Virus record (IMG/VR): IMGVR_UViG_3300042988_000109
Coordinates: 1-44,501 of that record
From: a virus
DNA: 44,501 bases
Direction: 5' to 3' (one strand)
Below the pieces are notes generated by a model that worked only from the letters and a program-made list of their open reading frames with translations, ran no database searches and was not told the DNA's origin. The position numbers were made by a program, and so were the translations under genes. Below, piece after piece: positions 31,156 through 40,234 of this stretch. How positions within the stretch are numbered: the stretch's first letter is position 1; the number at the start of each line of letters is the position of its first letter.

Positions 31156-31250
31156 TAGCAGTCTTAGCACTGTACATGCTAATATATACTCTATCGATGA
31201 ACGAACTTCATCGTAATCAATGAGATGTTCAGAAATGGACAAATCAGTGA

Positions 31251-31278
31251 TTGACAACTGAGCAAGGTATGTTATACT
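31251..31278 (+). promoter_or_regulatory. Sigma70-type promoter before gp32
   Basis: TTGACA (31251-31256), 16-nt spacer, TATACT (31273-31278); the predicted start is at about 31285. Confidence 0.72.
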
Positions 31279-31284
31279 AAGTTC

Positions 31285-31335
31285 ATGAGTCAAACCCGGC
31301 AGTATTCTCTTACTGACCACAAACAAAGTTTATAA
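31285..31335 (+). CDS. Possible 16-aa leader peptide
   Basis: The ATG lies exactly 6 nt after the -10 box of the gp32 promoter, the same geometry as several leaderless genes here, and opens a frame encoding MSQTRQYSLTDHKQSL then TAA. It may be a translated leader that influences gp32 expression, or chance. Confidence 0.3.
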   Translation: MSQTRQYSLTDHKQSL

Positions 31336-31382
31336 CTCTAGTATTTTTTCGACATCGTTTACATTTTTAAAGGAGAACATAT

Positions 31383-32411
31383 ATGTCATTAGCAGCAATC
31401 CGCGCCAAATTGGCCGCACAAGATAACAAAGCCCAGGGTAATCGTGAGAAGTCACAAGGTGACAATCAACTATATCCATTCTGGAACATCAAAGAAGGTG
31501 AACAAGCAACCGTTCGATTCTTACCAGACGGCGACTCATCAAACTCATTCTTCTGGGTAGAAAAAGCAATGTTTAAACTACCATTCACTGGCGTTAAAGG
31601 TCAGAATGATAGTAAAGAATATACCGTCCAGATTCCCTGCATGGAAATGTACGGCGAGAACTGCCCAATCTTGGCAGAAGTTCGCACTTGGTACAAAGAC
31701 GACTCCCTCAAGGAAATGGCAAACAAATACTGGAAGAAGCGCACCTACTTGTTCCAAGGCTTCGTCAAACAAAGTCCACTTGCCGACGACACTACACCAG
31801 AGAATCCAATTCGCCGATTCGTAATCACCCCACAAATCTTCGCAGTCATCAAAGCATCTTTGATGGACCCAGAGATCGAAGAAATGCCAACAGACACTCT
31901 TCGCGGTCTAGACTTCAAAATCGTTAAGACACAAAAAGGCGGCTATGCTGATTACTCCACTTCAGGCTGGGCACGTAAAGAATCTGCGCTAACTGCTGAA
32001 GAAGAAGCAGCTATTGCACAACATGGTTTGTTTAACTTGAAGGAATTCTTGCCTAAGAAACCAAGTGAAGCTGAACAACGCATCATGAAGGAAATGTTCG
32101 AAGCATCAGTCGATGGTCGTCCATATGACGCAGAACGTTGGGGTGCATACTTCAAGCCATGGGGTCTAGATGTTGGCACAGCACCACGCGCTCCAGAACC
32201 AGATGCTAATCATGAGCCAATTCCTAAGATTCCGGCATCTGCACCAGCATCTGCACCAGTAGCAGAAGCAGCTAAGCCTGAAACTCAGCCATGGGAAGCA
32301 GACGCAGCAGAAGCGGCCGAATCAATCAAGGTGCCAGCACCAGCTGCCGGTTCCGATAAAGCAACCGATATCCTCGCGATGATCAGGGCACGTCAAGGCA
32401 AAACTGCCTAA
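31383..32411 (+). CDS. Single-stranded DNA-binding protein, gp32-like
   Basis: A protein of 342 residues (T4 gp32 is 301). Core features are YPFWNIKEGEQATVRFLPDG (31-50), FFWVEKAMFKLPFTG, IPCMEMYGENCPI (84-96), YWKKRTYLFQGFV and RRFVITPQIFAVI, typical of gp32 of T4-like aquatic phages. An N-terminal basic arm (about 1-22) serves cooperativity; an acidic, Ala/Pro-rich C-terminus should recruit replication proteins. Only two cysteines (C86, C94) lie where T4 uses one His and three Cys to bind zinc, so the zinc site looks incomplete. It has its own sigma70-type promoter and an AAAGGAG site. Confidence 0.93.
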   Translation: MSLAAIRAKLAAQDNKAQGNREKSQGDNQLYPFWNIKEGEQATVRFLPDGDSSNSFFWVEKAMFKLPFTGVKGQNDSKEYTVQIPCMEMYGENCPILAEVRTWYKDDSLKEMANKYWKKRTYLFQGFVKQSPLADDTTPENPIRRFVITPQIFAVIKASLMDPEIEEMPTDTLRGLDFKIVKTQKGGYADYSTSGWARKESALTAEEEAAIAQHGLFNLKEFLPKKPSEAEQRIMKEMFEASVDGRPYDAERWGAYFKPWGLDVGTAPRAPEPDANHEPIPKIPASAPASAPVAEAAKPETQPWEADAAEAAESIKVPAPAAGSDKATDILAMIRARQGKTA

Positions 32412-32423
32412 TAGCTGAAAAGT

Positions 32424-32447
32424 AGATAACGCCTTAGGGCGTTATCT
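32424..32447 (+). terminator. Strong hairpin after gp32 (terminator or attenuator)
   Basis: A 10-bp stem AGATAACGCC (32424-32433), TTAG loop, GGCGTTATCT (32438-32447). It is followed by CTATTATAAGG rather than a long U-tract, so partial termination or 3'-end protection of the gp32 mRNA is likelier than full stop; uvsX downstream has no clear promoter of its own. Confidence 0.6.
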
Positions 32448-32466
32448 CTATTATAAGGAGCAGAGA

Positions 32467-32700
32467 ATGACTCTACCAAACGAGAGGTTGCGCTCTATAA
32501 ACCAAGCAAAGAAGCTGTTAGAAGACTTAATCGATCCTGGCAAAACACCACGAGTACCAGCAATCGTAAGAGAACGAGCACGTGGCGCCCTACGCCATTT
32601 CCCATCTGATTACGAAGTTGATAAGATAGCAGCAAGTTGTCCAGAATTACTAGACACACAACCATTTAATGGTTACAATTATACAATATTAGGAAAATAA
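32467..32700 (+). CDS. Small conserved protein (BPSL0761-like)
   Basis: A protein of 77 residues: MTLPNERLRSINQAKKLLED, a DPGKTPRVPAIVRERARGAL segment and LRHFPSDYEVDKIA. This is the pattern of a small family known from phages and bacterial accessory DNA (BPSL0761 family, from memory) of unknown function. A good AAGGAG site precedes the ATG. It sits one base from uvsX, between gp32 and the recombinase, hence likely linked to replication or recombination. Confidence 0.8.
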   Translation: MTLPNERLRSINQAKKLLEDLIDPGKTPRVPAIVRERARGALRHFPSDYEVDKIAASCPELLDTQPFNGYNYTILGK

Positions 32701-32701
32701 C

Positions 32702-33643
32702 ATGTCAAAACCATTTGATCTGAGTAAATTCAGAAAAGACATCACTAAATCAATCGAAGGGCTATCAATTGGCTTTTCCGACCCTACTGATTGGATCAGT
32801 ACCGGTAACTATGCACTCAACTATCTAATTTCGAGTGACTTCAAAAAAGGTGTACCACTAGGCAAAGTAACAGTGTTCGCTGGTGAATCAGGTTCAGGCA
32901 AATCATTTATTTGTTCTGGTAATTTAGTTCGCAATGCTCAAGAGCAAGGTATCTATGTAGTGCTAATCGATAGTGAAAATGCGCTAGATAAGACCTGGTT
33001 AGAAGCCCTGGGCGTTGATACGAGTGAAGATAAACTTCTAAAATTGAACCTGGCCATGATTGATGATGTCGCTAAGACAATCTCAACATTCATGAAAGAC
33101 TACAAAGCAATGGCCGAAGACGAACGACCTAAAGTGCTGTTCGTGGTAGACTCACTAGGTATGTTGATGTCACCAACAGAAGTCAATCAATTCGATGCTG
33201 GTGAAATGAAGGGCGACATGGGTCGTAAACCTAAAGCGCTCAAAGCACTGGTAACTAACTGTGTGAATATGTTCGGTAGTTGTAATGTGGGCTTAGTAGC
33301 TACTAACCATAGCTATGCCAGTCAAGACCAATATTCTCCAGACCCAATCGTCTCTGGTGGCTGCCTAACGGCGGGACACAAGGTTAGAATGTCCGACGGT
33401 ACAATGAAGCCAATCGAGATGATTCAGATTGGCGATTTAGTTCAAACATTGGATGACGATAAAATCGTTGAGGACACATTTACTTATGATGATAAAGAAG
33501 TATTCGAGATTGAACTAGACACAGGCGAGATCATTCAAGCTACAGGCGAACATAAGTTCCTGACATTGGTTGATGGCGCCCATCAATGGAAGATGCTCAG
33601 TGAATTAAACGTTGACGATTCTATATTACAGATCCTAGAATAA
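32702..33643 (+). CDS. uvsX: UvsX recombinase N-terminal part fused to split-intein N half
   Basis: A protein of 313 residues. Residues 1-220 are the N-extein, a RecA/UvsX-type recombinase: Walker A GESGSGKS (61-68), VVLIDSENALD, Walker B-like VLFVVDSLG and LVATNHSYAS. After VSGG, residue 221 is Cys, the first residue of an intein: block A CLTAGHKVRMSDGTMKP, a PIEMIQIGDLV segment, and block B IQATGEHKFL with the TxxH motif. The frame stops 93 residues into the intein. No endonuclease domain is included. Breakage falls in the region equivalent to RecA loop L2 (DNA binding), a highly conserved spot as usual for inteins. Without trans-splicing to the 34626 product the recombinase would be inactive. 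Confidence 0.93.
   Translation: MSKPFDLSKFRKDITKSIEGLSIGFSDPTDWISTGNYALNYLISSDFKKGVPLGKVTVFAGESGSGKSFICSGNLVRNAQEQGIYVVLIDSENALDKTWLEALGVDTSEDKLLKLNLAMIDDVAKTISTFMKDYKAMAEDERPKVLFVVDSLGMLMSPTEVNQFDAGEMKGDMGRKPKALKALVTNCVNMFGSCNVGLVATNHSYASQDQYSPDPIVSGGCLTAGHKVRMSDGTMKPIEMIQIGDLVQTLDDDKIVEDTFTYDDKEVFEIELDTGEIIQATGEHKFLTLVDGAHQWKMLSELNVDDSILQILE
33362..33640 (+). mobile_element. Split intein, N-terminal half
   Basis: 93 codons beginning with Cys1 immediately after the Gly-Gly of the recombinase. Blocks A and B are intact; the half ends in EILQILE-like acidic/hydrophobic residues (ILQILE) and a stop. Confidence 0.92.
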
Positions 33644-34651
33644 ATGTCGGCTTCAAAAAAGATTAAACACTGCGAAGTTTGCGGATGCCAAGTCACCAAA
33701 AGCGTGATGCAAACTCCAGTGGTGTGTTCTGACGAATGTAAAAAGATTCGCAAATCAAATTTGCCTAAGAAACTATCGATAGTCTCTTTACAGTATTGGA
33801 TAAATTGTGGATATTCCATCGATGATGCGAAAGCTGAAGTGATCAAACAACAACGATTACGTAGTAAACGGTGTGTTGAATACTGGATTAATCATGGATA
33901 CAGCCATGAAGACGCAGTGTCCGAAGTGGCAGCAGTCCAAAGTGCCAACGGTAAGCGATATGCGTCCGCCTATTCAGAAGAAGACCGACGCAAAAAAAGT
34001 TCGTTCTGTGTAGAATATTGGATAAATTTGGGATTGGATTTAGATAGCGCAACAAAACTTATATCTGAACGCTCTGATACAGTGTCACTGAAGTCGTATA
34101 TTAATAGACACGGTGAAGATGAGGGGACTAGGTTATATGAGGAACAATGCGCACATAGGCAGAATCATTATTCACTCGAAGGATATATCGATAAGCATGG
34201 CTTAGAACAAGGCACCATCATGTGGAATAAAAAATTCCAACATCGACCAAACTCTAAATCTGCTGATTCGTTTTTTGTCAAGCTGTTGACAATCCTTACA
34301 CCGACTCCTAAGATATATTCGGCAATCACTGAACACGGTGAGTATGGATTGAACGACAGCTCAAATGGTAAATATTACTTCTATGACTTTGTGATACCGG
34401 AATACAAACTGTGTATCGAATATCACGGAGATTACTGGCACTGTAATCCTATTAAATATCTAGCTAAATTCTATCATCCACATAAGAAGATGACCGCTAC
34501 TGAAATATGGCTAGCTGATAGCATAAAAATTGACTGTCTCAAGACACAAAGAGGTTACGATACTTTAATAGTATGGGAATCAGACGACGAAAACACGAAA
34601 CTAAACCAAATTATGGAGAAAATAAATGAACTTAAAAACAGTAAAAATTAA
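33644..34651 (+). CDS. Free-standing Vsr-like (EDxHD-type) homing endonuclease
   Basis: A protein of 335 residues in the gap of the split intein. The nuclease core near 246-269 reads YDFVIPEYKLCIEYHGDYWH, the pattern of the Vsr-related homing endonucleases described with fractured genes. The N-terminus has a four-Cys zinc-ribbon-like unit (C10, C13, C28, C32). Residues 48-197 carry five related helical modules: QYWINCGYSIDDA, EYWINHGYSHEDA, EYWINLGLDLDSA, SYINRHGEDEG and YIDKHGLEQG, probably NUMOD-like DNA-binding units. It should cut intein-free uvsX alleles and spread the element. The ATG directly follows the IntN stop; its 3' end overlaps the IntC start by 26 nt. Confidence 0.87.
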   Translation: MSASKKIKHCEVCGCQVTKSVMQTPVVCSDECKKIRKSNLPKKLSIVSLQYWINCGYSIDDAKAEVIKQQRLRSKRCVEYWINHGYSHEDAVSEVAAVQSANGKRYASAYSEEDRRKKSSFCVEYWINLGLDLDSATKLISERSDTVSLKSYINRHGEDEGTRLYEEQCAHRQNHYSLEGYIDKHGLEQGTIMWNKKFQHRPNSKSADSFFVKLLTILTPTPKIYSAITEHGEYGLNDSSNGKYYFYDFVIPEYKLCIEYHGDYWHCNPIKYLAKFYHPHKKMTATEIWLADSIKIDCLKTQRGYDTLIVWESDDENTKLNQIMEKINELKNSKN

Positions 34652-34745
34652 ATCAAAAAAATCAATCGGCATTGTTCCAGTATATGATATCTGCGTTCCT
34701 GGACCAAATCATTACTTCCTAGAGAGTGGAGTTGTTAGCCATAAC
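34626..34745 (+). mobile_element. Split intein, C-terminal half
   Basis: 40 codons with intact blocks F and G and the terminal HN dipeptide before +1 Ser; a normal size for natural split-intein C halves. Confidence 0.92.
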
Positions 34746-35165
34746 TCGGGCTTCGTGTATGCTTCCTCAATCTTGGTTGCTATGAAGAAACTCAAGTTGA
34801 AAGAAGATGAAGACGGCAACAAGACTAGTGAAGTACTAGGCATTCGCGCTGGTTGTAAGATTATGAAGACTCGTTATGCTAAGCCATTCGAAGACATTCA
34901 GATTCAAATCCCATATGAGAGTGGTATGAACCCATACTCTGGCTTCTTCGACCTAATTGAAAAGCGTGAGCTGATCAAAAAAGAAGGCAATCGTTATGCG
35001 TACACTGACTTGAACGGCGAGATTCACAAGTACTTCCGCAAAGAGTGGAACAAGAACGAAAACGGCATCATGGACTTAGTAATGGATGAATTTCATGAGA
35101 AAGAAAAGATTGCCGCCATCGCTCAAAAAGTTGCCGATGAAGCAGACGATAACACAGAAGTGTAA
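34626..35165 (+). CDS. uvsX: Split-intein C half fused to UvsX C-terminal part
   Basis: A protein of 179 residues. Residues 1-40 are the intein C half: block F VYDICVPGPNHYFLE (19-33) and block G GVVSHN ending in His39-Asn40, followed by Ser41 as the +1 nucleophile. Residues 41-179 are the C-extein, with SGFVYASSILVAMKKLKLKE, then GIRAGCKIMKTRYAKPFED and GMNPYSGFFDL, matching the C-terminal part of UvsX (T4 has a comparable DPYSGLLDM segment). Joining 220 and 139 residues restores a recombinase of about 359 residues. Translation may be coupled to the endonuclease gene, which it overlaps. Confidence 0.93.
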   Translation: MNLKTVKIKSKKSIGIVPVYDICVPGPNHYFLESGVVSHNSGFVYASSILVAMKKLKLKEDEDGNKTSEVLGIRAGCKIMKTRYAKPFEDIQIQIPYESGMNPYSGFFDLIEKRELIKKEGNRYAYTDLNGEIHKYFRKEWNKNENGIMDLVMDEFHEKEKIAAIAQKVADEADDNTEV

Positions 35166-35171
35166 TAAATA
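35164..35171 (+). promoter_or_regulatory. Possible late promoter element
   Basis: AATAAATA overlapping the UvsX C-part stop, 21 nt before the ATG at 35193. Late expression of the following recombination gene would be unexpected, so this may be chance. Confidence 0.38.
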
Positions 35172-35192
35172 GGCTCGAGGAGAATTTAATTT

Positions 35193-35462
35193 ATGAAACT
35201 TGATGTTATCGCAGAAGTATGGTTAATGATGAAGGACAGTATCTTATCTACGGACAGAGATACTGTTGCTGAGAACTTGGTTGGTATTCTTATTGACAAT
35301 GACTATTCACCAGCAGATATCAAAGCCGCATTCAGAGGCGACCTAGATATGATGGACGCTCTTACGGTGTATGTCGATGATTCTTCTGACTTTGAAGACG
35401 CTGATTACGAAGAGTATGACGAGCCAGCAGATGAAGAAGACTATGATGATGAGTGGAACTAA
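35193..35462 (+). CDS. Small acidic conserved phage protein
   Basis: A protein of 89 residues. The N-terminal ~60 residues are helical (MKLDVIAEVWLMMKDSIL, an ENLVGILIDNDYSPADIKAA stretch) and the C-terminus is extremely acidic (about 20 of the last 30 residues Asp or Glu). I recall such proteins in T4-like phages near recombination genes; the function is unknown. The acidic tail could mimic DNA or bind gp32/UvsX-type proteins, which is inference. A strong GAGGAG site precedes it. Its stop overlaps the uvsY ATG by one base. Confidence 0.78.
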   Translation: MKLDVIAEVWLMMKDSILSTDRDTVAENLVGILIDNDYSPADIKAAFRGDLDMMDALTVYVDDSSDFEDADYEEYDEPADEEDYDDEWN

Positions 35463-35920
35463 TGTCTAACTGGTACACAAAAGTCACCACTGACCTATCA
35501 ACGCTGCCTGACTTTATTGAGCACTACAACACCGAACTAGCGCAAGCTAGACTCGAAGTTAGTGTTAAGGGCAGCGTTGAGCGAAGTCTTGCTGGATTGC
35601 CAGGTGTCACCGAGCATCGCTTTAGTCAATTACAAACGATTGAAGCTGTGCTGAATCATCTCAATATTCAACTACGTAAGATTCGCAGTGCTACCTTCAG
35701 GAAGTACCTAGAGAATTACAATCGCGCACTTACAAGCCGAGACGCCGAAAAGTATGTTGATGGTGAATCAGATGTGATTGATATGGAAACTATCATCAAC
35801 GAGGTCGCCCTCCTACGTAATCGGTATCTGGGAATCCTCAAAGGATTAGAATCCAAAAACTTTATGTTGGGGCATTTGACAAAACTTAAGGTAGCAGGTC
35901 AAGAAGACTTCACGCTTTAA
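35462..35920 (+). CDS. uvsY: UvsY-like recombination mediator
   Basis: A protein of 152 residues (T4 UvsY is 137). It is all-helical and shows the UvsY pattern: YNTELAQARLEVSVKGSVER, then HRFSQLQTIEAVLNHLNIQL, then LENYNRALTSRDAEKYVDGE with D-V-I-D following, and LRNRYLGILKGLES near the C-terminus. UvsY helps load UvsX onto gp32-covered ssDNA, so it works directly with both neighbours. An ATG at 35462 is chosen because it overlaps the preceding stop (TAATG); a GTG at 35453 is upstream in frame. Confidence 0.85.
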   Translation: MSNWYTKVTTDLSTLPDFIEHYNTELAQARLEVSVKGSVERSLAGLPGVTEHRFSQLQTIEAVLNHLNIQLRKIRSATFRKYLENYNRALTSRDAEKYVDGESDVIDMETIINEVALLRNRYLGILKGLESKNFMLGHLTKLKVAGQEDFTL

Positions 35921-35926
35921 CAATAC

Positions 35927-35955
35927 TTGACAATCATCGAGGCTCCTGCTACAAT
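35927..35955 (+). promoter_or_regulatory. Sigma70-type promoter embedded in a hairpin
   Basis: TTGACA (35927-35932), 17-nt spacer, TACAAT (35950-35955); the predicted start is at about 35962, inside the hairpin described next. Confidence 0.75.
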
Positions 35956-35978
35956 ACAGCAATTGTAGTTAGGAGCCT
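35940..35978 (+). promoter_or_regulatory. RBS-sequestering hairpin
   Basis: Outer arms AGGCTCCT (35940-35947) and AGGAGCCT (35971-35978), inner arms CTACAAT (35949-35955) and ATTGTAG (35962-35968), loop ACAGCA. The right outer arm contains the AGGAG ribosome-binding site of the 35981 gene. Transcripts from the embedded promoter would lack the left arms, read-through transcripts would not. Confidence 0.75.
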
Positions 35979-35980
35979 TT

Positions 35981-36640
35981 ATGTCTTTAGAATTCAAATA
36001 TGATACCGACATTGCCTTTGCGGCGGCATGTGCTGCTATGCGTCTAAACAATGGTTATATCAAAGACGATACTAATGGCGAATTCAGCGCCATTCTTCAA
36101 AAATTTACAAGCCCGCCAAAGAAATCAAATAGAAATCTTATTCCAGTTGTCTTGGCAGATCAACGACTAATCAATCAATATGATCGTGAGTTGGCTAGTA
36201 CAGTGCGTACATTCTGCCAAGGGTTAACATTAAAACTCCTTAAAGATGGATATCTATCACGCAATGACCAAATCTGGATGGATGCCTCTAATGCGGACTC
36301 AGTTAAAGTTGGCAACATCATTGAACTGGCGGCATCACCAATAACATGTCTTAAATCAATTCAGCGTAGTGTAGTCGAGGAACGGATGAATCGCACGGTA
36401 CAGGCATACTATGCACAAATCGAAGAACGTGTATCAGAAAAAGTCGAAGTGCTACAATCAGTGTATAGCCACAACTATGGTCGATATTATATGAGTGGCA
36501 TTACAAGTACTAATCACGCGATATTCTTTTCCATGCTTCGACCACTTGAAGTCGGCGCGACTTATAGCATTACTGGTAGAGTAAACAAACATCGAGAAAA
36601 CTTTGTCACTGGTATCAACTTTGTTAAGGTAAAACAATGA
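35981..36640 (+). CDS. Hypothetical protein under hairpin control
   Basis: A protein of 219 residues that I do not recognise. The N-terminal half is helical (FAAACAAMRLNNGYI; a YDRELASTVRTFCQGLTLKL stretch). There is a Ser/Pro/Lys loop near 47-53 (SPPKKSNRN). The C-terminal part alternates strands and helices (NYGRYYMSGITSTNHAIFFS, TYSITGRVNKHRENF) and might be a small beta-barrel or OB-like fold. It lies between uvsY and an AAA ATPase and has a dedicated promoter plus an RBS-hiding hairpin, so its translation depends on which promoter made the mRNA. A replication-associated role is plausible from context only. Confidence 0.75.
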   Translation: MSLEFKYDTDIAFAAACAAMRLNNGYIKDDTNGEFSAILQKFTSPPKKSNRNLIPVVLADQRLINQYDRELASTVRTFCQGLTLKLLKDGYLSRNDQIWMDASNADSVKVGNIIELAASPITCLKSIQRSVVEERMNRTVQAYYAQIEERVSEKVEVLQSVYSHNYGRYYMSGITSTNHAIFFSMLRPLEVGATYSITGRVNKHRENFVTGINFVKVKQ

Positions 36641-36816
36641 ATCAACTCCATCAATTAGAAATGGCCGAAGAATCCTATCGCGATAGTATGGGAAGTGTCA
36701 CTGTTGCTGGCATCACGTTTGATGGCTGGCGAGTCCTGCAAGAATTAGATCCAATAGCGTATGATTGTGGTCTAGCGGATTATCTAGACTCTCTCGGAAT
36801 CGATACGGATATTTGA
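36637..36816 (+). CDS. Small conserved phage protein, 59 aa
   Basis: The start overlaps the previous stop (ATGA), and the frame encodes 59 residues to a TGA at 36814-36816. The sequence has VTVAGITFDGWRVLQELDPI followed by AYDCGLADYLDSLG. I recall this LxELDPIAYxCGLxDYxDSL pattern as a small conserved protein in many tailed phages, function unknown. The -35 box of the next promoter overlaps its stop codon, which marks the end of this unit precisely. Confidence 0.75.
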   Translation: MNQLHQLEMAEESYRDSMGSVTVAGITFDGWRVLQELDPIAYDCGLADYLDSLGIDTDI

Positions 36817-36841
36817 CAATTGCCGGGAATAGTGATACAAT
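36813..36841 (+). promoter_or_regulatory. Sigma70-type promoter for AAA ATPase
   Basis: TTGACA (36813-36818), 17-nt spacer, TACAAT (36836-36841); a 25-nt region with AAGGAAG precedes the ATG at 36867. Confidence 0.75.
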
Positions 36842-36866
36842 ACCGTCTTTACGTTAAGGAAGCAAT

Positions 36867-37913
36867 ATGTCAACAGTGCGAATCATCAATGGTGAATATC
36901 ATAGTCGTCCGGTATCTGGTATCTTTACGCTAGTAAAAGAGTATAAAGAAGGCAAGAACTGCGGATTCATCACAGTGAAGAATGACGGGAGATTCGAAGG
37001 TGGCAGCGCAACACCTCGCATCCGAGTTCGTGCCGCCTCTGACTTTGAATACTTGTCCGGTCACTCGGTCGTGGTACCTACCCATGTGGTCACAACATTT
37101 AGCGCAGATGAATCGGAGCCTGAAATCTCCGAGACGGATACTGAAGCTATGGATCGGATTGCCACTCGTTTTGCCATTCTTGATGAAATGTCTCTTGCTG
37201 CCATCAATGGTGGCATTCGCGGTCTAATCGTATCTGGCCCACCAGGTGTAGGCAAATCATTCGGCGTTGAGCAACAGCTGGCAAAAGTATCCTTGTTTGA
37301 TCAACTTGCCGAACGAAAGATTCGATATGAATTTGTTAAAGGTGCCACTACTGCTCTAGGATTATATACACAGCTGTATAAATTCAGTGATCCGGAGAAT
37401 GTTCTGGTATTTGATGACTCGGACGGAATCTTTACCGATGAATTGAGTATCAACATCTTGAAGGCGGCCCTGGATTCTGGTAAACGCCGCAAAATCTTCT
37501 GGAACAGCGACAGTTCAATGCTCCGTCGTGAAGGTATTCCTAATAGCTTTGACTTCCAAGGTTCAGTAATCTTTATTACTAACTTGCGATTCTGTAACCT
37601 CAAGTCCCAGAAGATTCGTGATCACCTTGACGCCCTTCAATCACGCTGTCACTTCCTTGACCTAACAATTGATACTCTGCGTGATCGTATGCTGCGCATT
37701 AAGCAAGTTCATCGTGACGCACCTGGTGGTCTCTTTGCAGACTACTATTTTGATGGTGATGAAGCTGAACAAGTACTAGACTTTATGTGGGAAAATCGCG
37801 ATCAGCTCCGTGAATTCTCTCTACGCATGTGTATGAAGATTGCAGACTTGATTAAGATTAGCCCACAGAACTGGGAAATGCTAGCAAAGAATACAGTAAT
37901 GCACCGAGATTAA
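36867..37913 (+). CDS. AAA family ATPase
   Basis: A protein of 348 residues. The N-terminal ~90 residues may be an adaptor domain. The ATPase core has P-loop GPPGVGKSF (124-132), Walker B VLVFDDSDGIF (179-189), and sensor-like segments (KIFWNSDSSML; SVIFITNLRF at about 230-239) and DALQSRCHFLDL with a candidate arginine finger. T4-like phages often carry such uncharacterised ATPases near recombination genes. It is not gp44 (the clamp loader ATPase), because the SRC motif is imperfect (QSRC) and the Walker B box is DDSD rather than DExx, but a distant relation cannot be excluded. It has its own promoter and a terminator behind it. Confidence 0.82.
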   Translation: MSTVRIINGEYHSRPVSGIFTLVKEYKEGKNCGFITVKNDGRFEGGSATPRIRVRAASDFEYLSGHSVVVPTHVVTTFSADESEPEISETDTEAMDRIATRFAILDEMSLAAINGGIRGLIVSGPPGVGKSFGVEQQLAKVSLFDQLAERKIRYEFVKGATTALGLYTQLYKFSDPENVLVFDDSDGIFTDELSINILKAALDSGKRRKIFWNSDSSMLRREGIPNSFDFQGSVIFITNLRFCNLKSQKIRDHLDALQSRCHFLDLTIDTLRDRMLRIKQVHRDAPGGLFADYYFDGDEAEQVLDFMWENRDQLREFSLRMCMKIADLIKISPQNWEMLAKNTVMHRD

Positions 37914-38014: not shown

Positions 38015-38296
38015 ATGGCTAAGAAGAAACCACAAGTGTCATCAATCTTTGACTTCTCGGACATGGAGTCTACTGAGAATGAGTGGCGGGGAATGCCCTC
38101 GTTTGAACAACCGGACAATGGTCCATTCCGTCAAATTATTATCTCGTTTGAGGATCAAGCGGGAATAGATGCGTTTGCTAAGTTGATCGATCAACACGTT
38201 ACAGATAAGACTAAATCGCTTTGGTATCCACCACGCGAACGTAATAATCTGACCAATCTGTTTTGGTTCGACTCCAACAAGGACACGGAACAATGA
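38015..38296 (+). CDS. Small conserved protein accompanying the glycosyltransferase
   Basis: A protein of 93 residues. The core is EWRGMPSFEQPDNGPFRQII, then a SFEDQAGIDAFAKLIDQHVT stretch and KTKSLWYPPRE. I recall this WxGMPxF ... IxVxFxxxxDxxxFAxLIxQxxTxKTKSxWYP pattern from phage DNA-modification and ParB-like nuclease neighbourhoods, function unknown. It overlaps the TAGT-type glycosyltransferase start (ATGA), and the two share the promoter at 37960, so a shared role in DNA modification is likely. Confidence 0.8.
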   Translation: MAKKKPQVSSIFDFSDMESTENEWRGMPSFEQPDNGPFRQIIISFEDQAGIDAFAKLIDQHVTDKTKSLWYPPRERNNLTNLFWFDSNKDTEQ

Positions 38297-39240
38297 AAAA
38301 TCTTTTTCCAATTTATGTCCCTACCAAGGGAAGAGCTGATAGTAGACTAACGAGTAAAGCGTATGACTTTATGAAAATGCCGCACTATCTTGTTGTCGAG
38401 CCCCAAGAGTGCGAGATATATGAGAAGTCAATATTTGATTGGGAAAAGGAAACAGGTCTCACATCATACGCGACAGTATTGGAACTCGATCTCAACTATA
38501 AAGAAACTTATGAATTGGGCGATGATCTTGGCCTAACAAAATCAACTGGACCTGGTCCTGCGCGTAACTTTGCATGGGATCATTCAATTAAGAATGGCTT
38601 TGAGTGGCACTGGGTCAGTGATGATAACATCAGAAACTTCCTACGTCTAAATAACAATCTAAAGATCAAGATGGGAGACGCAACAGGGTTCAGAGTGATG
38701 GAGGACTTCGTCATGCGCTATCAAAATGTAACGATGGCCGGGCCTAACTATCGAGCATTTGCATCTCAGAACGCATCGGTGCCGCCGTATGTGAAGGGTA
38801 CTAGAATTTATTCTTGTAATCTGATAAAGAATGACGCCAGATGGCTCACTGGACCAAGAGCAGGTCAACGCATGGCTTGGCGTTTACGCTATAATGAAGA
38901 TACAGTACTGAGCTTAGATATGCTCACACAGGGTTATCAAACCATCCAATTTAATTTCGCGTTACAAGATAAATTACGCACCCAGGTTCTTGGCGGCGGC
39001 AATACAGCTGAGTTTTACGCCAGCGAAGGCACATCTGCAAAGTCAAGAATGCTAAAGGAAGCATATCCCGAGTACACAGAGCTTGTATGGCGGTTCCAAA
39101 GAGAACATCACCACGTGGACTATTCCTCATTTAAAGACATTCCTCTTATCAGAAAGCCGGATTTGAACATCATTGAAGGAACAAACAATTATGGTATGGA
39201 ACTTCGCGAAGTGCCTCCGGCCGCGCCAGGTAGAGTTTAA
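38293..39240 (+). CDS. TET-associated-type glycosyltransferase (TAGT family)
   Basis: A protein of 315 residues from ATG 38293, which overlaps the preceding stop; a TTG at 38263 is in frame but lies inside that gene. It has a GT-A type fold start IYVPTKGRADS (7-17), a GPGPARNFAWDHS segment (86-98), the metal/sugar-binding WHWVSDDNIRNF (105-116; DDN in place of DxD), and RLRYNEDTVLSLDM. This is the family predicted to put sugars on hydroxymethylated or otherwise modified pyrimidines in phage DNA. No TET/JBP dioxygenase or hydroxymethylase lies in the window, so the modified base would have to come from elsewhere in the genome. Confidence 0.85.
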   Translation: MKNLFPIYVPTKGRADSRLTSKAYDFMKMPHYLVVEPQECEIYEKSIFDWEKETGLTSYATVLELDLNYKETYELGDDLGLTKSTGPGPARNFAWDHSIKNGFEWHWVSDDNIRNFLRLNNNLKIKMGDATGFRVMEDFVMRYQNVTMAGPNYRAFASQNASVPPYVKGTRIYSCNLIKNDARWLTGPRAGQRMAWRLRYNEDTVLSLDMLTQGYQTIQFNFALQDKLRTQVLGGGNTAEFYASEGTSAKSRMLKEAYPEYTELVWRFQREHHHVDYSSFKDIPLIRKPDLNIIEGTNNYGMELREVPPAAPGRV

Positions 39241-39250
39241 TGCCATCGAT

Positions 39251-40234
39251 TCATCGGCGATTCATTGAGTTGAGTGATGTTATTACGTTCAGCTTCGAAA
39301 CGTCCGCTGAACTCTTCCCCACTCTGGCGAAACCTAGTTCCTTGTAGGTATTACCGACGGCTTGTTCCGGAGTGAACAGGTTCTGTAGCAGTAGACACTC
39401 ATCATACGCCTTCACGGTGACTTTACGTTCGTTTTTGGCACAGAAGGTTTTCATTCTCGTTAACGATAGTTCAGGTTCAAGTGTTGCTGGCGAATCAAAT
39501 ACGCCTACTGGTGTGATATAATACCATTTATGTCGAGCATTGTTGGCGCCAACATGAGATTGGTTTTTTGTCATGGTGTTGCTCAGTTTGGTGCAAGTTT
39601 CGGCAGTCTTCACCGTTCCTTTATTTGCCTTAGAAATTAGTATTTTTGCTTCTGCTGACACTGGTATACCCTTGCTTACTGGTACCAAAATGCCAGTGAT
39701 ATACAATGGATCAGATTTAGAAACTAAAAAATTGTTACCCTGTTGATCTTTAACGGCTACTTTTCCACTAGACGGAGTCTGATGTACGCCGGGTACATAT
39801 AATGACTTATCGATCATTGTCCATTCGCCATCTACCATAACGGTGACTAGTCCATTAGTACCGAATCTACTCAGTGTTTGTTTTGCCTTATTGTAAAATT
39901 TAGGATTGATATGCACTGCGAATTTACCGTGTAGAGTAAATTCCAGGAATATCGCATCGTCAGAATAGTCAAAAGTTTGTAGTATTTTGTATTTGTAATT
40001 TTTTGGATTAGTCTTCTGATCTAGCTTAAAATCCTTATCCGTACTCGACGAAAAGTATTTGATACCTAGATCGCGATGTGGATGTTTCTTTGAAGTTCTT
40101 TTACCATAATAATGTTTGCCTTCAACTATATTAGTGATTCGGTAGATATAATGGTATCTCCCATCGATACCCGTTACTGCTCGACGACCGTAAATGTTAG
40201 TACGTGGGGTATTGGGTTCAGTATAAATAGTCAT
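39251..40234 (-). CDS. GIY-YIG-type homing endonuclease
   Basis: A protein of 327 residues on the minus strand. The GIY-YIG module reads YHYIYRITNIVEGKHYYGKR (27-46, YIY...YYG), followed by SSTDKDFKLD and FLEFTLHGKF with the likely catalytic Glu and a YNKAKQ segment. Two or three DNA-binding style segments follow (VAVKDQQGNNFLVSKSDPLY; KWYYITPVGVFDSPA). It is a free-standing selfish nuclease inserted antisense between the glycosyltransferase (11 bases from its end) and uvsW. It has its own minus-strand late element (40296-40303), a hairpin-forming leader and AAAGGAG site. Its likely target is a neighbouring gene in related phages. Confidence 0.85.
   Translation of the reverse strand: MTIYTEPNTPRTNIYGRRAVTGIDGRYHYIYRITNIVEGKHYYGKRTSKKHPHRDLGIKYFSSSTDKDFKLDQKTNPKNYKYKILQTFDYSDDAIFLEFTLHGKFAVHINPKFYNKAKQTLSRFGTNGLVTVMVDGEWTMIDKSLYVPGVHQTPSSGKVAVKDQQGNNFLVSKSDPLYITGILVPVSKGIPVSAEAKILISKANKGTVKTAETCTKLSNTMTKNQSHVGANNARHKWYYITPVGVFDSPATLEPELSLTRMKTFCAKNERKVTVKAYDECLLLQNLFTPEQAVGNTYKELGFARVGKSSADVSKLNVITSLNSMNRR

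Follow-up and report, generated by a model that had tools for sequence, protein, structure and literature searches.

We analyzed IMG/VR record IMGVR_UViG_3300042988_000109 from position 1 to 44,501 (the window; this 44.5-kb record is complete here but comes from a phage with a larger genome), in which the gene for the RecA-like recombinase UvsX is interrupted by the two halves of an intein with an endonuclease gene between them, all on the plus strand. The first open reading frame (ORF1, 32702-33643) encodes the N-terminal part of UvsX (N-extein, 220 aa from the P-loop to the Gly-Gly of loop L2; 32702-33361) joined to the N half of the intein (IntN, 93 aa; 33362-33643) at VSGG/CLTAGH, and continues through ATGEHKF to a TAA stop codon. 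The ATG of a free-standing, Vsr-like putative homing endonuclease (335 aa; 33644-34651) begins at the base directly after this TAA, in the same frame as IntN. The third frame (ORF3, 34626-35165) encodes the C half of the intein (IntC, 40 aa; 34626-34745) and, beyond the junction VVSHN/SGFVYASS, the rest of UvsX (C-extein, 139 aa beginning with Ser+1; 34746-35165). A first-pass annotation of this DNA had described the same ORFs, frames and motifs (Cys1, TxxH, stop, His-Asn and Ser+1), together with a 26-nt overlap between the endonuclease and IntC frames, and all of these are confirmed on coordinates. It had also expected a UvsX of about 359 residues; the joined exteins give, from sequence, exactly 359 aa with no residue gained or lost at the junction.

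A second IMG/VR record (L157; labels of this form denote locus records compared with the window) is 100% identical to the window over 9005 bp spanning the whole arrangement, which argues against an assembly fault, and we dismissed an artefact on this ground. Uninterrupted uvsX genes in relatives, proposed in the first-pass annotation as a check, do exist: the gene is continuous at exactly this junction (gap 0) in 151 locus records (not de-duplicated), including the close relatives L006, L007 and L008. Compared with these three genes, the 1384 bp comprising IntN, the endonuclease gene and IntC (33362-34745) appear as a putative mobile cassette.

Both exteins, on either side of the insert, match the UvsX family phrog_97 (6e-50 for the N-extein, 1e-16 for the C-extein). 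The N-extein is 95% identical in amino acids to the uninterrupted UvsX of L006 and L007, the C-extein matches the RecA profile TIGR02012 (3.8e-8), and the joined protein, which has the P-loop and the L2 Gly-Gly of a UvsX/RecA core, is matched by phage UvsX 9gbg at 3.5e-35. Insertion at the conserved L2 region, as first proposed, is borne out by alignment with RecA, in which VSGG/SGFVYASS falls on TTGG/NALKFYAS and the insert thus lies directly after the Gly-Gly of this DNA-binding loop. These glycines (G211 and G212 in RecA) are the only DNA-contact positions fully conserved among RecA, Rad51/RadA and UvsX (PMC2663765).

The two halves are recognizable as inteins by several searches. Against the NCBIfam profiles, IntN scored 29.1 bits with TIGR01445 (cut-off 24.5) and IntC 23.2 bits with TIGR01443 (cut-off 15.6), and all the marks of a class 1 split intein are present (C1, block B T61-G-E-H64, block F VYDI, H39-N40 and S+1). 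C1 and H64 are invariant in 18/18 aligned IntN sequences and N40 in 16/16 IntC sequences, with His39 in nearly all. Joined end to end, IntN and IntC align at 38% identity with an intein that Salicola phage SCTP-2 carries, in contiguous form, at the identical site. A profile of the 18 IntN members placed gp41-1 first among natural inteins (5.7e-12); matches to Tako8 in the same search look spurious, with no single stretch above threshold. The AlphaFold model of IntN has a predicted local distance difference test score (pLDDT) of 86.7, and its Foldseek matches are almost exclusively inteins or other Hint domains, led by gp41-1 and Npu DnaE with probabilities of 0.94-0.99. The comparison with known split inteins suggested in the first pass thus identifies gp41-1 as the best natural match by both profile and fold. 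IntN is acidic (charge -14) and IntC mildly basic (+3); we set electrostatic pairing aside as proof of a split-adapted intein, since SCTP-2, whose intein is contiguous, shows almost the same polarity in it (-16/-1). Apparent IntC matches starting from residue 11 at many loci were likewise rejected, being alignment overruns into intact uvsX with no intein.

The endonuclease consists of an N-terminal Cys cluster, repeated YWxxxGYSxxxA modules and a C-terminal nuclease domain. By sequence its matches to Vsr are weak; for its AlphaFold model (pLDDT 86.7), the best Foldseek match is Vsr (1cw0, probability 1.00), followed by PvuRts1I and AbaSI, in agreement with the Vsr-like free-standing endonuclease initially assigned to the space between the halves. 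D248, E259, W265 and H266, within the motif DFVxxxxKxCxE(F/Y)xGDYWHxNP, are invariant in 19 homologues, and D248 and H266 are the equivalents of Vsr D51 and H69. The assignment extends to Vsr-like and, as a correction to the first reading, not firmly to the EDxHD family of I-Bth0305I: none of the sequence or fold matches listed was named I-Bth0305I. The endonuclease of L273 is interrupted by a stop codon within the range analyzed; it was omitted from the structure alignment, and its own selection estimates (dN/dS) skip that codon. In the endonuclease tree, the members at the L2 site form one clade (support 98/98), those at the Walker A site of UvsX another (100/97) and those in the terminase large subunit a third (100/100), which indicates that endonuclease lineage goes with insertion site. 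In L260 (2848-3906) and L271 (5001-6059), endonucleases of the L2-site clade are free-standing between uvsY and a uvsX that is uncut at L2.

The arrangement in the window is not isolated, a correction to the first reading: at least about 20 more phage loci have their break at the exact L2 site, with an endonuclease that is related, unrelated, decayed or missing, and the site is shared with Lak megaphages and, as a contiguous intein, with SCTP-2. These counts come from pattern-seeded scans with a ceiling of 80 loci, and are not frequencies. A related endonuclease is found in L261/L262/L263, L264/L266, L265, L267-L269, L270, L273, L274, L275 and L276, as well as in L169 (partial), L253 and the Lak-B5 megaphage. 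The gap holds a different ORF in L165 (524 aa, nuclease-like) and L170 (HNH-like), a decayed endonuclease in L005 (remnant aa 274-330) and no endonuclease in L091/L167, L171 and L250; in L172, also split, the gap spans 1.1 kb. In SCTP-2, the UvsX carries the contiguous intein at L2 and a second contiguous one at Walker A. In the Lak-B5 megaphage, where TAG encodes Gln (L342 1045-4178, MK250024.1), the fractured uvsX is unannotated and has a 463-aa endonuclease-like ORF between its parts. In the UvsX tree, the uninterrupted L006, L007 and L008 are nearest the window (L007 at 95% amino acid identity), and the split state is scattered, with at least five changes forced by well-supported branches.

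Comparison of such relatives revealed cassettes that have changed hosts. L264 and L265 have the same 1.4-kb cassette, at 100% identity, whereas the uvsX sequence on either side of it mostly agrees at 67-90% per 30-nt bin (the exceptions are the opening 30 nt of the C-extein, at 1.00, and a poorly aligned C-terminal end), and the change in identity falls at the extein-intein junctions. Similarly, between L261 and L264 the proportion of synonymous differences (pS) is 0.83/0.76 in the exteins, near saturation, compared with 0.02-0.04 in the cassette. An identical cassette within diverged uvsX indicates that such cassettes move as units; this is the pattern that homing predicts, and shows recent movement between diverged uvsX genes in these relatives. 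The endonuclease of the moved cassettes is under purifying selection (nonsynonymous to synonymous ratio, dN/dS, 0.03-0.14), and in every comparison IntN and IntC show far less amino acid replacement than synonymous change.

The pieces also appear equipped for separate translation. A predicted ribosome-binding site of the IntC gene, TATGGAGAAAAT, lies within the endonuclease gene (34609-34625), and IntC has its own ATG after a Shine-Dalgarno-like motif in 12 of 14 loci. The sequence ATGGAGAAAATnnATG upstream of IntC is common to the window, L005 and L091; the ribosome-binding sequence, near-identical in the latter two, is kept even though the endonuclease is missing from L091 and reduced to a remnant in L005. 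A search of 31200-36900 for terminator-like sites on the plus strand gave none, so a single mRNA is possible, and polycistronic expression would fit the overlap of the endonuclease and IntC frames.

We regard it as highly likely that uvsX has been fractured by a mobile cassette made up of a canonically split, trans-spliced class 1 intein and a homing Vsr-like endonuclease. The comparisons above show the layout, the intein homology of both halves, the repeated occurrence at a single site and, in relatives, the transfer of the homologous cassette between diverged uvsX genes; from them we infer trans-splicing, the activity and target of the endonuclease and the dependence of homing on the UvsX of this phage. 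Ribosomes would make UvsX-IntN and IntC-UvsX as two products, starting the latter at a ribosome-binding site of its own that lies within the last part of the endonuclease gene; IntN and IntC would then associate and fold into one Hint domain, and splicing in trans through Cys1, His-Asn and Ser+1 would yield intact 359-aa UvsX. The two protein halves of UvsX thus probably stitch themselves together. During co-infection, the endonuclease would cut intein-free uvsX at or near the junction site, and repair would copy the cassette, probably using UvsX, gp32 and UvsY themselves.

Several points weigh against this interpretation. IntC has no Pfam intein match at 0.1, and the fold matches of IntN have low template-modeling (TM) scores (0.37-0.43), which half a Hint domain would be expected to give but which are weak by themselves. 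Several homologues have Tyr in place of endonuclease H261, the residue that aligns with Vsr H64. Finally, no near-identical copy of the window's own cassette was found in a diverged uvsX, and with no such pair its mobility is deduced from relatives whose endonuclease is 44% identical.

In one alternative, splicing works and is needed, but homing by the endonuclease has ceased and the cassette is a frozen relic that persists since its exact loss is improbable. The loci that keep a split intein with an endonuclease remnant (L005) or none (L091, L171 and L250) fit this view; however, the endonuclease of the window is a full 335-aa ORF with every residue that is invariant in the 19 homologues, and homologous cassettes have moved recently with their endonuclease under selection, and we consider a relic unlikely. 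If there were no splicing at all, UvsX-N and UvsX-C would be separate subunits, or the gene would be dead and another recombinase would substitute, and a second uvsX could indeed lie elsewhere, given that the window is a 44.5-kb fragment. Yet Cys1, TxxH, His-Asn and Ser+1 are all retained, replacement is held well below synonymous change in both intein halves, and without splicing the DNA-binding loop would be left with half inteins attached, all of which makes this explanation quite improbable.

Joining of the pieces into one contiguous maxi-intein by read-through or frameshifting is suggested by the shared frame of IntN and endonuclease in the window, with a single TAA between them. Among relatives, however, the stop codon (TAA, TGA or TAG), the gap (0-67 nt) and the frame relation (0, 1 or 2) vary freely, which excludes a conserved read-through, and IntC always starts with ATG, mostly after a Shine-Dalgarno-like motif; we give this explanation very little credence. 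The least credible of all is removal of the insert as RNA, as a group I or II intron with the endonuclease inside it. T4-like phages do have introns with endonucleases (PMC2988022), but no Rfam family reached threshold anywhere in the window, and the segments adjoining the junctions encode conserved intein halves.

The fractured gene is flanked by genes for a gp32-like single-stranded DNA (ssDNA)-binding protein upstream (31383-32411, plus strand; phrog_1192, 1e-66) and a UvsY-like mediator downstream (35453-35920, plus strand; phrog_231, 6e-13). In T4, homing needs UvsX, UvsY and gp32 (PMC2988022). The window holds a second mobile gene, on the minus strand amid plus-strand genes (39251-40234), which matches the homing endonuclease family phrog_314 (3e-20) and adjoins a glucosyl-hydroxymethylcytosine glucosyltransferase-like gene (38263-39240).

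The kind of arrangement described here is already known, from the work of Dassa and colleagues in 2009 and from the DNA polymerase (PolB) genes of phages Aes123 and MIJ3. The 'fractured genes' of the former, reportedly those of the gp41 helicase, NrdA/NrdJ and IMPDH, carry the two parts of a split intein on separate ORFs that flank a free-standing endonuclease gene. The window shares the split halves and the intervening endonuclease gene; it differs in having uvsX as the host gene, cut at L2, on a contig with phage context and within a comparative series. Dassa et al. 2009 (doi 10.1093/nar/gkp095) is cited in PMC6892783 and PMC7090010. PolB of Aeromonas phage Aes123 (gp43B1/VSR endonuclease/gp43B2) has the same annotated order of N-intein, VSR endonuclease and C-intein, a Vsr-type endonuclease whose C-terminal domain is homologous and a 17-nt overlap with the IntC ORF. 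In contrast to the window, its host gene encodes a DNA polymerase and its endonuclease, 32% identical over 95 aa, falls outside the L2-site clade. The first-pass assignment of the locus to the fractured genes is thus backed by the intein profiles, the SCTP-2 alignment, gp41-1, the fold matches and the Aes123 precedent. The split PolB intein of MIJ3 (PMC6892783), a jumbo phage, has an endonuclease gene between its halves, but this is of the HNH type. Of the other inteins compared, gp41-1 has the same canonical split site in a different host, the replicative helicase, and the SCTP-2 UvsX inteins, one of them at the identical site, are contiguous mini-inteins without an endonuclease. VidaL is presumably from a uvsX gene (VidaL UvsX-2). 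Its ultra-short IntN of 16 aa (PMC13014065) resembles the 15-aa Walker A IntN of L091, L165 and L169, at an insertion site other than that of the window. In the literature searched, which was without Dassa et al. 2009 and Carvajal-Vallejos 2012, no paper with both a split intein and uvsX was found.

In L091, L165, L169, L172, L253 and L267-L269, UvsX is split at both Walker A and L2 and encoded as three polypeptides (coordinates L091 3513-5543, also L166/L244; L165 3892-7409; L169 2719-5616; L172 3603-7040). The Walker A IntN, where read, is ultra-short, 15 aa in L091, L165 and L169 (e.g. CLPESAKVTVRLTEK, then a stop) and 18 aa in L172, and some doubly fractured loci have an endonuclease in both gaps. 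The uvsX of Pseudomonas phage PAC2, cultured on PAO1 (L341 1-2986, PP408249.1), is annotated as two RecA-like proteins; its split intein is at Walker A, and a related endonuclease lies between the halves. This phage is tractable for experiments.

Other genes are fractured as well. In L159 (3184-6336) and L158 (3628-7890), the terminase large subunit is broken after LPRQ(T/V)GK, and its intein halves enclose a related endonuclease; L158 has an apparent further intein in the C part (Cys..His-Gln/Cys). Beside the fractured uvsX of L170 (3826-5860), a replicative-helicase-like gene is itself split near Walker A (IntN CVHPETKVRIRFRKIS, then a stop). In Klebsiella phage KP13-7 (L340 47-4810), a 'hypothetical' gene, DNA polymerase B-like by its TDSVYF motif, is fractured with a related endonuclease.

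A more far-reaching reading, which we put forward tentatively and judge rather unlikely, is that UvsX has been invaded repeatedly, with both the Walker A and L2 split inteins having to trans-splice the three polypeptides, and that cassettes arose from a free-standing uvsX-targeting endonuclease and a split intein without one, as collaborative homing at the protein level. T4 SegA, which cuts uvsX, is free-standing beside that gene, as are the endonucleases of L260 and L271; it differs in being of the GIY-YIG type, and collaborative homing has been described for introns (PMC2988022). On the same reading, since homing needs UvsX, the element would control the enzyme that copies it, and ssDNA might promote splicing, as reported for an archaeal RadA intein (PMC10663303).

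What is new here is the uvsX comparative series, the evidence for cassette mobility and the UvsX fractured at two sites. It has hitherto been hard to see how split inteins and separate endonucleases unite and stay mobile. At the uvsX site, contiguous inteins, split inteins without an endonuclease, with a decayed one and with an intact one, and free-standing endonucleases are all found, and these states at one site, together with near-identical cassettes in diverged hosts, make the steps testable. For protein ligation, the loci also offer new split inteins of both the canonical and the ultra-short type. For the phages themselves, the mobile element sits in the very recombinase that homing requires.
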